Assembly: GCF_039822205.1 (NCBI RefSeq)
Contig: NZ_JBAGBW010000025.1
Coordinates: forward strand, 1 to 26,333
Length of the DNA stretch: 26,333 bases
DNA from: Thermodesulfobium sp. 4217-1
GTDB lineage: Bacteria; Thermodesulfobiota; Thermodesulfobiia; Thermodesulfobiales; Thermodesulfobiaceae
Direction: 5' to 3'
In this document: in pieces, positions 4,737 through 9,029 of the stretch
How positions within the stretch are numbered: position 1 is the stretch's first letter
Layout: every line of letters begins with the position of its first letter
Program-made: the position numbers and the translations under genes
Notes under the pieces: generated by a model
The model's input: the letters and a program-made list of their open reading frames with translations, nothing else
Databases searched by the model: none
Told to the model about the DNA's origin: nothing

Positions 4737-6311
4737 TTAGAACTTTACGTCCATCTGAATGTAGTATCTTTGATCCTTGTCAACCTGATCTGGGTTAAAG
4801 GTATAGTAGTAGCCATTATTAATATTATAAGGCTGCTTGCCCTTCCAGTAGTCATAGTTCAAGGTTAAGGTTGCGTTATTTGCGACTGGGAGTGTGTAGT
4901 ATACGTTGTAGTAGTCCTTATAGTCTGTAGATGCCATAGTGTTAAGAATGAATGGGTTGTACCACTTGTTGTTGCCAAACCAAAAGTCGCCTGTAAGTGC
5001 GCCGACTGGTAGAGGAATGGTTGCTCCTACTCTCCATACGCCACCGTTTACAGTACTTGTGCTGCTAAGATCTGGACCAGAAGCAGTGGCTGATGGCATA
5101 TCGGTAGATGTGCCACTGTAACCTGCCCACATATTTATGTTATACATGGTCCAGTTGCCAATTACTGTCCACCAGCTATACTTGCCATAGATGCCGTTTG
5201 CAGCTGATGTATACTGTACGCCGTTTACGGTATTAAGGCCGCCAAAATAAGTTAACTTGTCTACGTTACCGTAGTCAGCTTCTAAACCAAAGGTGTTGAA
5301 GAGCTTTGTCTTTAAGTTCAAAATGTATGCGTCTTTGTCCTTAAGACCATTTGCCTCTTGAGTAGATGTAATAGAACCATCATCAAAGAGCTTTACCCAT
5401 GCTGCTGAAACTGATGTTGATGGGAGGAAGTTGCTAAGGTCAAATGCTACCAAGCCGCCTTCTACTGAAGCATCAAGGAAGATATTATTGTAATATCTGC
5501 CAGCATCCATAGTAGGAAGTCTACCAAGAACGAATGTAACAGGATATGGGTTCAGAGTCCATACAATGTATGATCTCTCTACAAATAATGTGTTCTGGTT
5601 GTTATTATAGCCTGTGTTTGCAGCTGTAACCAGGTTGGAGTTGTCTCCTGTGCCGTTTACGCCTGCATTCTTCTGCATTGTAAGCCTTGCATTGAAGCTG
5701 ATGTTGTCAGCAACTGGTGCTGCAACGTTTAGTCTAATTCTATAACGCATAAAGGTATCGTTGTTTTTGTCAGCAGGCACTGTTGTAGATGTAGCAAGTG
5801 CTTCTCCGCCAACGCCGCCTGGAATATTGTTGCTGGCTACTGGTGCAACTATTGTTCCGCTATTCATTGCATAATAGGTTGCCTTTTCACTTGCAAGTCT
5901 AAATCTTGCATCTCCTGTGAAGTTAACAGTGTCAAGAGCTGCTTTTTTCTCAAGCGCTGCGACTCTGACGTTTAGCGATGCGAGTTCTGATTTAAACTCT
6001 TCTGCTAACTTCATAAGTGTTGCGATGTCGTTAGCGTTTAACTGGATCTTTTGATCTTGTGCATTCTGACCTTTTTCATACATGTCGAGCATTCTTGCAA
6101 CTACCATTGCCATCTCATAACGAGTGGCAAGTCTGTCGCCTCTGAATGTTCCGTCGCCATAACCAATGACCAATCCTTTTGCTGCTAAGTCTTGCACTGC
6201 TTTGTATGCCCAAGAATTAGCTGGTACATCTGAGAATGGTCCTGCCATAGCTGGAACTGCAAGGGCGACGAGAAGTGATGCTACTACGAAAAACATAGCT
6301 AATTTTTTCAT
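4737..6311 (-). CDS. SLH-domain outer-membrane porin
   Basis: Predicted outer-membrane channel tethered to the cell wall. It has a Sec signal peptide (residues 1-23, cleavage after AMA), one SLH domain (about 24-80; FSDVPANSWAYKAVQDL, GYGDGTFRGDRLATRYEMA), a coiled-coil linker (about 90-135; LASLNVRVAALEKK), then about 390 residues of alternating polar/aromatic beta-strand pattern rich in Tyr, Asn, Gly and Trp. The last residues, IQMDVKF, end in Phe as outer-membrane barrels do. The layout matches SLH-OprB-type porins of cyanobacteria, Negativicutes, Deinococcus and Thermotogae. At 524 aa it is complete. The ATG has AAAGGGGG 10 nt upstream. A consensus promoter, long leader and its own terminator suggest an abundant, monocistronic product. 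Pore selectivity cannot be read from the sequence. Confidence 0.9.
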   Translation of the reverse strand: MKKLAMFFVVASLLVALAVPAMAGPFSDVPANSWAYKAVQDLAAKGLVIGYGDGTFRGDRLATRYEMAMVVARMLDMYEKGQNAQDQKIQLNANDIATLMKLAEEFKSELASLNVRVAALEKKAALDTVNFTGDARFRLASEKATYYAMNSGTIVAPVASNNIPGGVGGEALATSTTVPADKNNDTFMRYRIRLNVAAPVADNISFNARLTMQKNAGVNGTGDNSNLVTAANTGYNNNQNTLFVERSYIVWTLNPYPVTFVLGRLPTMDAGRYYNNIFLDASVEGGLVAFDLSNFLPSTSVSAAWVKLFDDGSITSTQEANGLKDKDAYILNLKTKLFNTFGLEADYGNVDKLTYFGGLNTVNGVQYTSAANGIYGKYSWWTVIGNWTMYNINMWAGYSGTSTDMPSATASGPDLSSTSTVNGGVWRVGATIPLPVGALTGDFWFGNNKWYNPFILNTMASTDYKDYYNVYYTLPVANNATLTLNYDYWKGKQPYNINNGYYYTFNPDQVDKDQRYYIQMDVKF

Positions 6312-6521
6312 CTTTGCATTTCCCCCTTTAGGAAATTAATTTTTTTGTTTCATATATCAGCCTTTTTACAGAACTACTTGCGCGCGTTCGGGGGAATACA
6401 CCTCCTTTTTTTGCAGATTGCACAGATCTGTAAAGGGCTCCTTGAAGGCTAACGCCGTCCAAAGCTTTGGGAGAAGCAAAACAATATTCAGTTGTCAATG
6501 AAAAAAGTTAATTTTTGACTG
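6312..6521 (-). promoter_or_regulatory. Long structured 5' leader of the SLH porin mRNA
   Basis: About 210 nt separate the predicted transcription start from the porin ATG. Part of it (6380-6470) is clearly richer in G+C than its AT-rich surroundings. On the minus strand I see a palindrome CCAAAGCTTTGG (6459-6470); a hairpin TTTACAGAT/ATCTGCAAA (6426-6434 with 6410-6418, one mismatch); and a competing long-range helix AGCCCTTTACAGA/TCTGTAAAAAGGCT (6427-6439 with 6359-6372), which reuses the first arm of that hairpin. Between them lies AAGGAGGTG (6399-6407), a perfect anti-16S match with no start codon after it, followed by CCCCC. It matches no riboswitch class I know. Mutually exclusive pairings suggest cis-regulation or transcript stabilisation, but this is unproven. 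Confidence 0.4.
6328..6498 (-). CDS. Possible 56-aa leader ORF upstream of the porin (doubtful)
   Basis: An open frame from TTG (6498) runs 56 codons to a TAA (6328-6330) that touches the porin Shine-Dalgarno, as a coupled leader peptide would. It has no ribosome site of its own, and it uses CGA, ACG and CGC codons that are uncommon in neighbouring genes, where AGA dominates. It contains GGVFPRTRASSSVKRLIYE. I do not recognise it. More likely it is a by-product of a structured RNA leader. Confidence 0.12.
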   Translation of the reverse strand: MTTEYCFASPKALDGVSLQGALYRSVQSAKKGGVFPRTRASSSVKRLIYETKKLIS

Positions 6522-6527
6522 TCATAA

Positions 6528-6555
6528 TTTATAACACATTAAAAAAATCTGTCAA
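6528..6555 (-). promoter_or_regulatory. Sigma-70-type promoter of the SLH porin
   Basis: On the minus strand a perfect -35 TTGACA (6550-6555) is separated by 16 bp, including a T7 run, from -10 TATAAA (6528-6533). Transcription would begin near 6521. It is the best promoter match in the window, as expected for an abundant surface protein. It lies about 40 bp past the stop of the upstream glycosyltransferase gene. Confidence 0.75.
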
Positions 6556-6592: not shown

Positions 6593-7618
6593 TTATTGAC
6601 CTAAAATATCCATTGTGGCATCGACTATTTCATCAGGCGTTATCAACTTCATACACCTTCCCCCTTTATCACATCTCTGATAAAGACACTCCCTGCAGAT
6701 CTCCTTGTGCATCAATACGCTGTGCTTTTTGCCCCAGGGCCTATATCTTCTCTCATCAGACGGTCCAAAGAGCGCAACTGTGGGGATATTTAGCAGAGAG
6801 GCTATGTGCATAGGCCCTGAGTCATTGGTAACAAGAGCTGAGAGATTTTTTATGATGTAGAACAAATCCATCAGGCTCGTCTTGCCGCAAAGATTAAGCG
6901 ATTCTACTTCCTTTGAGATCTCATCACAAAGACCTATCTCCTCGCTTGATCCGAGTAAAACTAAATTCAAACCATTATTTTTCAGCATCTTTGCGACCTT
7001 GACGAATCCATCGATACTGTATGCCTTAGGCTGCCAGGTGGCGCCTGGCACGATGCCAACCGAACCCAATATCTTGTCAAAAACGTCGCTAAACTTGATA
7101 ATAGTCTTAGTGTCAATTATAATCTTATTAGAGTAATCGAATTTAATGTTTTCTACATCTTTGTGAAAGATATTTCTTAGGTGTTCTTCGGTTGCATGAA
7201 TCCCAGGGAGTTTTGGCTTAAAGGTTGTGAATATCTTTTGTTTGGAACGCACAAATATAGGCAGAATGGAGTGTCTGAGGTCAATGACAAGGTCGTATCT
7301 TTTTTTTGAAATAGTCTTTATCAAAGGAATCTTACCCTTTATGCCCCTGTTTTCAGAGGTGTACAAAAATACTTCGTCTACGTTTGACAAGGTTAAAAAT
7401 ATTTCCTTTGACCTTTCACCTACCAGGACGTCAAATTGAGCTTTTGGAAAGAGCCTTTCGAGCTCAAAAAAGACAGGTAGGCTCATTATGCAATCGCCAA
7501 GAGAAGACAGCGTTATAAAGAGAATCCTTTCAAAATCCTCTCTCTCTCGAAGAGATTTCCTAAAGATGCTTATGATATCACCTCTAATAAATAATATATA
7601 CTTCAGTGATTTTAGCAT
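6593..7618 (-). CDS. Glycosyltransferase family 9 (heptosyltransferase-like) protein
   Basis: Predicted cytoplasmic GT-B fold enzyme that adds a heptose-like sugar from a nucleotide donor to an LPS-type core. The core begins at ILFITLSSLGDCIMSLPVFFELE (from about residue 32); the C-terminal half has the family signature VTNDSGPMHIASLLNIPTVALFGPSD and a four-Cys cluster (CRECLYQRC, GGRC) seen in many heptosyltransferases. The length of 341 aa is typical. The only ATG/GTG/TTG start in frame is at 7618, which adds about 31 residues before the usual N-terminus and overlaps the divergent DUF4127 gene by 131 bp. A non-standard start nearer 7525 is possible. It supports the presence of an outer membrane. 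Acceptor unknown. Confidence 0.85.
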   Translation of the reverse strand: MLKSLKYILFIRGDIISIFRKSLREREDFERILFITLSSLGDCIMSLPVFFELERLFPKAQFDVLVGERSKEIFLTLSNVDEVFLYTSENRGIKGKIPLIKTISKKRYDLVIDLRHSILPIFVRSKQKIFTTFKPKLPGIHATEEHLRNIFHKDVENIKFDYSNKIIIDTKTIIKFSDVFDKILGSVGIVPGATWQPKAYSIDGFVKVAKMLKNNGLNLVLLGSSEEIGLCDEISKEVESLNLCGKTSLMDLFYIIKNLSALVTNDSGPMHIASLLNIPTVALFGPSDERRYRPWGKKHSVLMHKEICRECLYQRCDKGGRCMKLITPDEIVDATMDILGQ

Positions 7619-9029
7619 AGCTTCATCAAGAGATGCATGTTATGTGCCTCTGGACAACAGGCCGCCAAACTATATCTATCCGAAAAGATTAGCAGATATT
7701 TTGGGGATAAAGCTATTGATCCCCCCAGAGGATACGCTTTCTGAGAGAAGAAAAAAGGCTGCAAGTCAGGATATATTGGCATTTTTAGTAGAAAATTGGG
7801 CAAGTTGTGCCATAGTAAGTGCTGACTCAATGATATTCGGAGGGCTTGTCCCATCAAGAGAAAGTCAGATGACACAAGATGATGCAATATGGTACACAAG
7901 GAGACTTCTTAATCTAAAGAGCTCAAACATATTTGACAGCGTATATCTATTTAAGTCTCTTATGAGGCTGATGCCTACCGTTTTGGACGACAAAGAGCTA
8001 TTTTACGCCACAAAGATCGAAGAGATAATGAAGTTTTCAGTTGACGATATTAAGGATCCTGTAAACTTTTATGAAAGAGAGCTTCTTTTGACATACGTTC
8101 CGCCAGACATATTAGAAGACTATATAGAGTCAAGAAAGATAAACTACTTTGTTGACAGGATGTTGATAGATGGTTCTAAAAAGGTAGATCTCTTAGTGCT
8201 GGCCCAGGATGACTCAGCTGACAAGGGCGTGGCATACGAAGAGAAGAAGAGGCTAAGCATGATCGCCACAAAAAATACCAAGATAGTGCAGGGCTCAGAC
8301 GAAATAGGCATGCTTCTTGTAACAAGGTTTGGCAAATCTGACAATGTAAGCGTAAAAACTACTTTTGTGCCAGAAGAGATAGAAGAGGAAGTAATGCCCC
8401 TTGAAACGGTGGCTCTTGGAAAGAATCTTTTGTCCCAGGTAAACCTCCTACAACTAAAGTTAAACGACACAAATCCAAATTTTTATATGGTAGTCTTTGG
8501 CAAGTCAGGATATGAGCAAACAGCTTTTGGCAAAGTAAGGTCTCTCATTAACGACAAAAAAAATGTGGCGTTTGCAGACGTGTCAAATATGAACATGACG
8601 GACGAGAAGATGTTTAAGCTTTTGCTCTCAAGCGGTCTAATATTTAGGCTTATCGCCTATGCAGGCTGGAATACGGCGGCTAATACCACAGGGACGGCTA
8701 TCTCACAAGCAGTCAGCTACCTGTCAGGCAGAAATTTCAAAGAAAATTTTAGATTTCTGATAGAGAGAATAATATACGACTATTACTATCAGAACGTCAT
8801 AAGACCACAGATAAACAATATATTGATAGAAAACAACCAATCAAATTTCAAGATGACACAAGATAGCATAAACATAGCAAAAAACATATTCTTTCAATAC
8901 TTCCCTGGAATTTCAGAAGAGATTATGATGTGCAGCCCAATAAAATTTAGTATTACAGATGTAAATTTCTCCCTCCCCTGGGAAAGAACTTTCGAGGCAA
9001 ACATAGAGATAGAAATAAAGCTAATTTAA
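7488..9029 (+). CDS. DUF4127 family protein with Tat-like N-terminus
   Basis: A 513-aa protein of the uncharacterised DUF4127 family. Diagnostic motifs in order: YVPLDNRPPNYIYP (about 52-65), SADSMIFGGLVPSR, LAQDDSADKG, GSDEIGMLL, AFADVSNMNMTDE, AGWNTAANTTGTAISQA (about 397-413) and PWERTFE near the C-terminus. The N-terminus has SRRDFLKM (about 20-27), a good twin-arginine motif, followed by a moderately hydrophobic stretch, so export in folded form is likely. The ATG at 7488 has AGGTAGG upstream; a start at the Met after the motif would lose the Tat signal. It is the only complete plus-strand gene in the window. The conserved Asp/Asn-rich motifs suggest an enzyme, but the reaction is unknown. 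Confidence 0.83.
   Translation: MQSPREDSVIKRILSKSSLSRRDFLKMLMISPLINNIYFSDFSIASSRDACYVPLDNRPPNYIYPKRLADILGIKLLIPPEDTLSERRKKAASQDILAFLVENWASCAIVSADSMIFGGLVPSRESQMTQDDAIWYTRRLLNLKSSNIFDSVYLFKSLMRLMPTVLDDKELFYATKIEEIMKFSVDDIKDPVNFYERELLLTYVPPDILEDYIESRKINYFVDRMLIDGSKKVDLLVLAQDDSADKGVAYEEKKRLSMIATKNTKIVQGSDEIGMLLVTRFGKSDNVSVKTTFVPEEIEEEVMPLETVALGKNLLSQVNLLQLKLNDTNPNFYMVVFGKSGYEQTAFGKVRSLINDKKNVAFADVSNMNMTDEKMFKLLLSSGLIFRLIAYAGWNTAANTTGTAISQAVSYLSGRNFKENFRFLIERIIYDYYYQNVIRPQINNILIENNQSNFKMTQDSINIAKNIFFQYFPGISEEIMMCSPIKFSITDVNFSLPWERTFEANIEIEIKLI

Follow-up and report, generated by a model that had tools for sequence, protein, structure and literature searches.

What does a perfect Shine-Dalgarno (SD) sequence do when no start codon follows it? 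The question arises in Thermodesulfobium sp. 4217-1, where a 26,333-nt stretch of DNA (hereafter the window) contains, on the minus strand, a leader of about 210 nt ahead of an OmpM-like porin gene. The initial annotation of this leader had described a near-consensus promoter, a GC-rich leader in an AT-rich gap, two helices competing for one arm, and an orphan perfect SD able to pair imperfectly with the CCCCC that follows it. The motifs it quoted are all present where it placed them when the minus strand is read (arm 6439-6427, ATCTGCAAA, TCTGTAAAAAGGCT, and AAGGAGGTG at 6407-6399), as is a promoter-like TTGACA; the contrast in GC content was checked by eye only. The plus-strand fold of the region is scarcely better than shuffles (z -1.3); the finding is one of the minus strand.

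The features of the leader are collected in Table 1. The orphan SD lies about 95 nt upstream of the porin gene, whose start codon is at 6311, and about 113 nt from the predicted transcript start. OmpM tethers outer membranes in diderm Terrabacteria (PMC10628300), and the porin encoded here is similar in kind.

Table 1 Features of the porin leader, in window coordinates
Feature	Position	Strand	Basis
Near-consensus promoter: TTGACA (6555-6550), 16-nt spacer, TATAAA (6533-6528)	6528-6555	-	sequence
Transcription start	~6521	-	predicted from the promoter, not mapped
TTTTGCTTCTCCC, alternative mask of the ribosome-binding site (RBS)	6469-6481	-	minimum free energy fold, group-A alignment, energy
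5' hairpin CTTTGGACGGC-GTTA-GCCTTCAAGG, upstream of the orphan SD	6440-6464	-	group A only
5' arm of long-range helix P2, AGCCCTTTACAGAT	6426-6439	-	comparison
ATCTGCAAA, local and weaker option for pairing with the 5' arm of P2	6410-6418	-	energy
Orphan SD AAAGGAGGTG, without usable start codon downstream	6399-6408	-	sequence and comparison
Anti-RBS TTCCCCC, complement of the real RBS GGGGGAA	6390-6396	-	energy, shuffle and swap tests
3' arm of P2, TCTGTAAAAAGGCT	6359-6372	-	comparison
Real RBS of the porin gene, GGGGGAA, with CCTAAA before it	6320-6326	-	sequence
SLH-domain porin, OmpM-like, 524 aa	4737-6311	-	Pfam SLH and DUF3373, weak Porin_5

As a whole, the leader folds only mildly better than shuffles (z -1.7), and the case therefore rests on comparison. 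Four genomes represent the genus, which is the whole content of the phylum in the genome collection used. The parts of the leader recur in them before most SLH-porin (OmpM-like) paralogues, in leaders that sort into five groups, A to E, the window's belonging to A. All five groups have a strong orphan SD 56-97 nt upstream of the start codon (87-97 nt in A-C), no group has a conserved start codon after it, and it is the only feature constant across them. This leader, and with it the orphan SD, is missing from porin paralogues that immediately follow a feoB-like gene. In the complete genome G001, where a simple ORF rule served for gene calling, 693 upstream regions contain 12 orphan sites that match in eight or more bases, and half of these sites (6/12) are porin leaders, a hypergeometric P of 4e-11, or about 1e-7 when three homogenised group-A copies are counted once. 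The annotated orphan SD without a start codon thus held, far above chance.

Two group-A copies of G001 share 99.5% identity in the leader and 97.4% in the first 130 codons, against 53.6% in the promoter and 76% in the remaining gene. Group-A leaders and first 130 codons are homogenised within a genome, so that within-genome copies are not independent. A related pattern was noted at 141-155 kb of G001 (L047) and 120-132 kb of G003 (L048), where inverted porin pairs face each other 12-14 kb apart, with leader and SLH region nearly identical, homogenised, and promoter and barrel different; gene conversion or perhaps inversion may be responsible. Two further observations concern individual paralogues. 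In group E (L023, L026, L033) a tRNA gene precedes the porin, and a strong hairpin separates the tRNA from the orphan SD; the feoB-like neighbour of one paralogue, judged by eye in L029 and L034, may point to an iron-linked porin.

Groups A, B and C can be aligned and share P2, a long-range helix that encloses the orphan SD. Against shuffled flanks, P2 z-scores are -1.8 to -3.9 in A, -3.2 to -4.5 in B, and -3.6 and -5.9 in C. The window's own P2 alone (z -1.8) is not significant, and that of paralogous leaders is (z -2.8 to -5.9); groups D and E gave no notable z-score for P2 by the same procedure, E having the strong 5' hairpin instead. In the alignment, 91% of cells are paired at P2 positions compared with at most 61% in slid controls, and double changes occupy 23 cells vs. 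9.7 in shuffles, although the number of pairs with double changes shows no excess over shuffles. Because the structure was derived from the same sequences, the controls are biased in its favour, and no more than a few between-group events underlie the double changes. When the four genomes were searched with a covariance model of the leader, R1, each of its 14 sense-strand sites preceded a porin gene, and there was one weak antisense echo besides; L165, held out when the model was built, is matched at E 3.6e-7.

Energy calculations support the competing helices of the initial annotation, yet make them very unequal, at -4.2 kcal/mol for the local helix and -13.2 for P2. The local helix is much weaker, and its role, if any, would therefore be only transient, during transcription. 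Pairing of the orphan SD with the adjacent CCCCC was rejected as too weak (-3.7 kcal/mol). What had been missed is that the same CCCCC can pair far better with the real RBS of the gene (UUCCCCC/GGGGGAA, -14.1 kcal/mol). The segment 6469-6481 can pair equally well (-14.1 kcal/mol) with the real RBS and the stretch preceding the start codon (GGGGGAAATGCAAA), and TTCTCCC within it is retained in 7 of 8 aligned group-A copies. In the nested minimum free energy fold it is this segment, not TTCCCCC, that masks the RBS. The real RBS is predicted to be sequestered in the window, its unpaired probability being near 0. The orphan SD is the better match to the 3' tail of 16S rRNA, at -16.1 kcal/mol vs. 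-11.1 for the real SD. The tail used is the standard sequence, which is assumed, as rRNA stretches of G001 are apparently masked and its 16S 3' end was unreadable. Within the genus the anti-RBS is clear in group A only; in C, D and E the orphan SD occurs without a good anti-RBS, and masking of the RBS is therefore not the constant function.

The same arrangement recurs across lineages, which had also been missed. In genomes of other families, an orphan perfect SD frequently lies 135-184 nt ahead of the SLH-porin gene, so that the spacing over all leaders spans 56 to 184 nt. At least nine bases of 16S complement are present in 43 of 103 SLH-porin leaders from other lineages, compared with 1.9% of shuffled leaders; the counts are per leader, not per family, and 34 of the 103 come from one phylum. 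The conserved complement is 10-13 nt long, and is followed by a segment matching the gene's own RBS.

This last match was examined in 11 lineages. The RBS of the same gene is a better partner for the segment that follows the orphan SD than are those of the other lineages (mean score 16.6 vs. 11.9), and none of 100,000 permutations in a swap test was as good (p<1e-5), a value that is indicative because lineages and windows were picked after the pattern had been seen. Individually, eight of the 11 beat shuffled loops at p<=0.06, seven of them at about 0.01 or below, and three show no significant match; the window's own loop gives p = 0.01. The two partners change together between lineages (CUUGGUAG/CUACCAAG, UCUCUGGAA/UUCCAGGGA, AUUAUCCC/GGGAUAAU, CUUGGUU/AACCAAG, UUCCCCC/GGGGGAA). 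Inside the best-sampled set, from one phylum, the loop/RBS helix is invariant, and support for it therefore comes only from between lineages. Pseudoknot counting was dropped for set A6 because loop and RBS shift register between its two subgroups.

In the phylum of genome G144, the orphan GAAAGGAGGUGA is nearly invariant and shares its loop with CUUGGU or UUGGU, which is complementary to the RBS ACCAAGG. From this phylum, 14 leaders taken as a subset support 43 pairs, with 95.6% of cells paired (slid controls at most 51%) and 14 pairs with double changes vs. 6.2 in shuffles; an AT-rich subset was also analysed. The RNA has two covarying domains, the second with a conserved GRAAC/GGAUA loop, and is absent from Rfam. 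Its covariance model, R2, also matches leaders of other families (L261, L270, L185, L251, L173, L252; E 5e-9 to 1e-4). Over 386 genomes its sites precede SLH-porins, except that in one family they precede proteins that look from their sequence like outer-membrane barrels and have no SLH domain; the sole other match is weak, partial and before a MarR-like gene. Before these barrel-like genes (L298, L299, L300) the loop reads UCCUUGG and the RBS CCAAGGA.

The R2 leader resembles that of the window in gene family, orphan SD, anti-RBS directly after it, and closing helix. It differs in its second domain, which inspection by eye did not reveal in the genus, whatever the leader group, and in having no sequence-level match to the window. 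Membership of the window in R2 was rejected, since the model gives only chance-level matches, elsewhere in the window. The logic is present in the window's leader, where orphan SD and anti-RBS likewise share a helix-closed loop.

An Rfam covariance search and an alignment of SLH-porin paralogue leaders were among the checks suggested by the initial annotation. The search found no family in the leader at strict or permissive thresholds, and the alignment gave both conservation and compensatory changes. The annotation had inferred a cis-regulatory element or mRNA stabiliser of no recognised class, and this reading is supported by the compensatory changes before SLH-porins, the lack of an Rfam match, and the presence of RNases J and Y without RNase E/G; regulation or stabilisation itself remains an inference. 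An exact-pattern scan of genome contigs for AAGGAGGTGNANTCCCCCGA returned four matches, three in coding sequence and one before an unrelated membrane protein, which we take to be chance; records near the window's genome may have lain outside the scan. No report of such a leader was found in the literature searched, which left out most subscription papers. The leader belongs to a new family that combines known kinds of element: by sequence, the orphan SD is conserved, the closing helix covaries, and the RBS of the gene itself has its complement in the segment just 3' of the orphan SD.

We propose that the leader controls translation of a major outer-membrane porin by serving as a docking site for 30S subunits, an inference without experiment that may as well prove wrong as right. 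Without a bound 30S subunit, the anti-RBS TTCCCCC would pair with the real RBS GGGGGAA and mask it. A 30S subunit would dock on the orphan SD, the better match to the 16S tail, and the anti-RBS would then lie in the mRNA channel of the ribosome, at the usual place of the start codon, where it could not mask the RBS; the RBS would be uncovered and the porin translated. The docked subunit would probably also block RNase J arriving from the 5' end. Porin output would thereby track the supply of free 30S, and the message would be long-lived. RNase J and RNase Y are present in the genus, RNase J scoring over the cut-off in all four genomes, and RNase E/G is absent from the genomes examined. Groups C, D and E have no good anti-RBS, and it is possible that stabilisation is the older, constant role, masking having been added in group A and in other lineages. 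The model rests on no data for transcription start, structure probing, half-life or ribosome binding.

Riboswitches and leaders that mask an RBS likewise contain an upstream segment complementary to it. They differ from the window in that here a 16S-tail complement stands beside the anti-RBS, and for this reason we propose the 30S subunit as the trigger, in place of a metabolite or protein. A bolder reading, against which we lean slightly, is that these leaders form a multi-lineage RNA class for major outer-membrane proteins with the free 30S subunit as effector: the perfect 16S-tail complement would capture a subunit, the real start site would be uncovered, and synthesis of envelope proteins would be matched to ribosome supply. 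Sensing of free 30S by an mRNA is plausible and unproven. Perfect SDs without start codons are usually ignored, and here they are conserved before major outer-membrane porins in unrelated lineages, next to a segment that fits the start site of the respective gene. At a minimum they mark a family of structured leaders that has not been described before and serves a defined set of genes. If 30S docking is true, the supply of ribosomes would be coupled directly, at the RNA level, to production of the most abundant envelope proteins, and it would become testable whether an mRNA is where bacteria sense free ribosomal subunits.

One of two main rivals is a pure 5' stabiliser of the STAB-SD type, in which the sole effect of the docked 30S is to keep out RNase J, the anti-RBS being incidental. 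This remains possible. In organisms with RNases J and Y and no RNase E/G, an orphan SD is known to stabilise mRNA (PMC4113751, PMC3997798), and the STAB-SD of cry3A (cryIIIA) in Bacillus thuringiensis works in exactly this way (same references). As in the window, the cry3A element is a perfect SD in the 5' UTR without a start codon, serving a very abundant protein in an RNase J organism, and the window's SD qualifies as a STAB-SD in having no associated start codon and being able to pair with the 16S 3' end, the standard tail again being assumed. Further points in favour are the constancy of the orphan SD alone over five groups, in a genus with RNases J and Y and without RNase E/G, and, by inference, group E, where tRNA processing would leave the 5' end open to RNase J. 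Unlike cry3A, the window has an anti-RBS after the SD, a covarying helix around it, and an SD well inside the predicted leader. Stabilisation alone does not explain the conserved closing helix or the gene-by-gene matching of loop and RBS across lineages, and the distance of about 113 nt to the predicted transcript start may also speak against it, unless the leader is cleaved.

The other main rival, likewise possible, is a standby or hand-over site, in which a 30S loaded at the orphan SD would be handed on to the masked real RBS, about 95 nt further downstream, with the two sites brought close by the loop/RBS pairing. In its favour, the real RBS of group A is predicted to be masked, the orphan SD is 87-97 nt upstream in groups A-C, and in tisB of Escherichia coli, as in the window, the site used lies upstream of a sequestered RBS, 100 nt away (PMC7708055). 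Descriptions of the tisB site, however, name a single-stranded region and a pseudoknot that binding of 30S and S1 requires, and not a perfect SD, whereas the window has an SD of 10 nt. An SD duplex of 10-13 nt should, we infer, retain the 30S rather than release it, and the spacing is inconsistent between leaders (56 to 184 nt).

Two others are very unlikely: repression or protection of the mRNA by CsrA bound to GGA motifs in the loop would suit an AGGA in a loop and a CsrA homologue in all four genomes, but the homologue matches below the curated cut-off and conservation spans the 10-13 nt of 16S-tail complement, beyond what CsrA needs; and an SD serving a short leader-peptide ORF with an unusual start could be read from an MFLF* ORF in group D of two genomes and an open TTG frame in L174, but the SD is conserved and a start codon is conserved in no group.

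Some minor observations were made alongside. A hairpin with a conserved GRAAC...GGAUA (or GGCAA) loop, without an Rfam match, occurs 60-135 nt upstream of SLH-porin genes in many lineages (L173, L174, L175, L178, L179, L183, L216-L249, L258), including a Thermus-like slpA leader (L179, L258) that showed no orphan SD. At 156888, 500608 and 323116 of G001, a strong SD seems to be split from its start codon by a short hairpin (SD-hairpin-ATG). In the window itself, a gene for a DUF4127 protein (7488-9029, plus strand) and an oppositely oriented glycosyltransferase family 9 gene overlap at the start of the latter.
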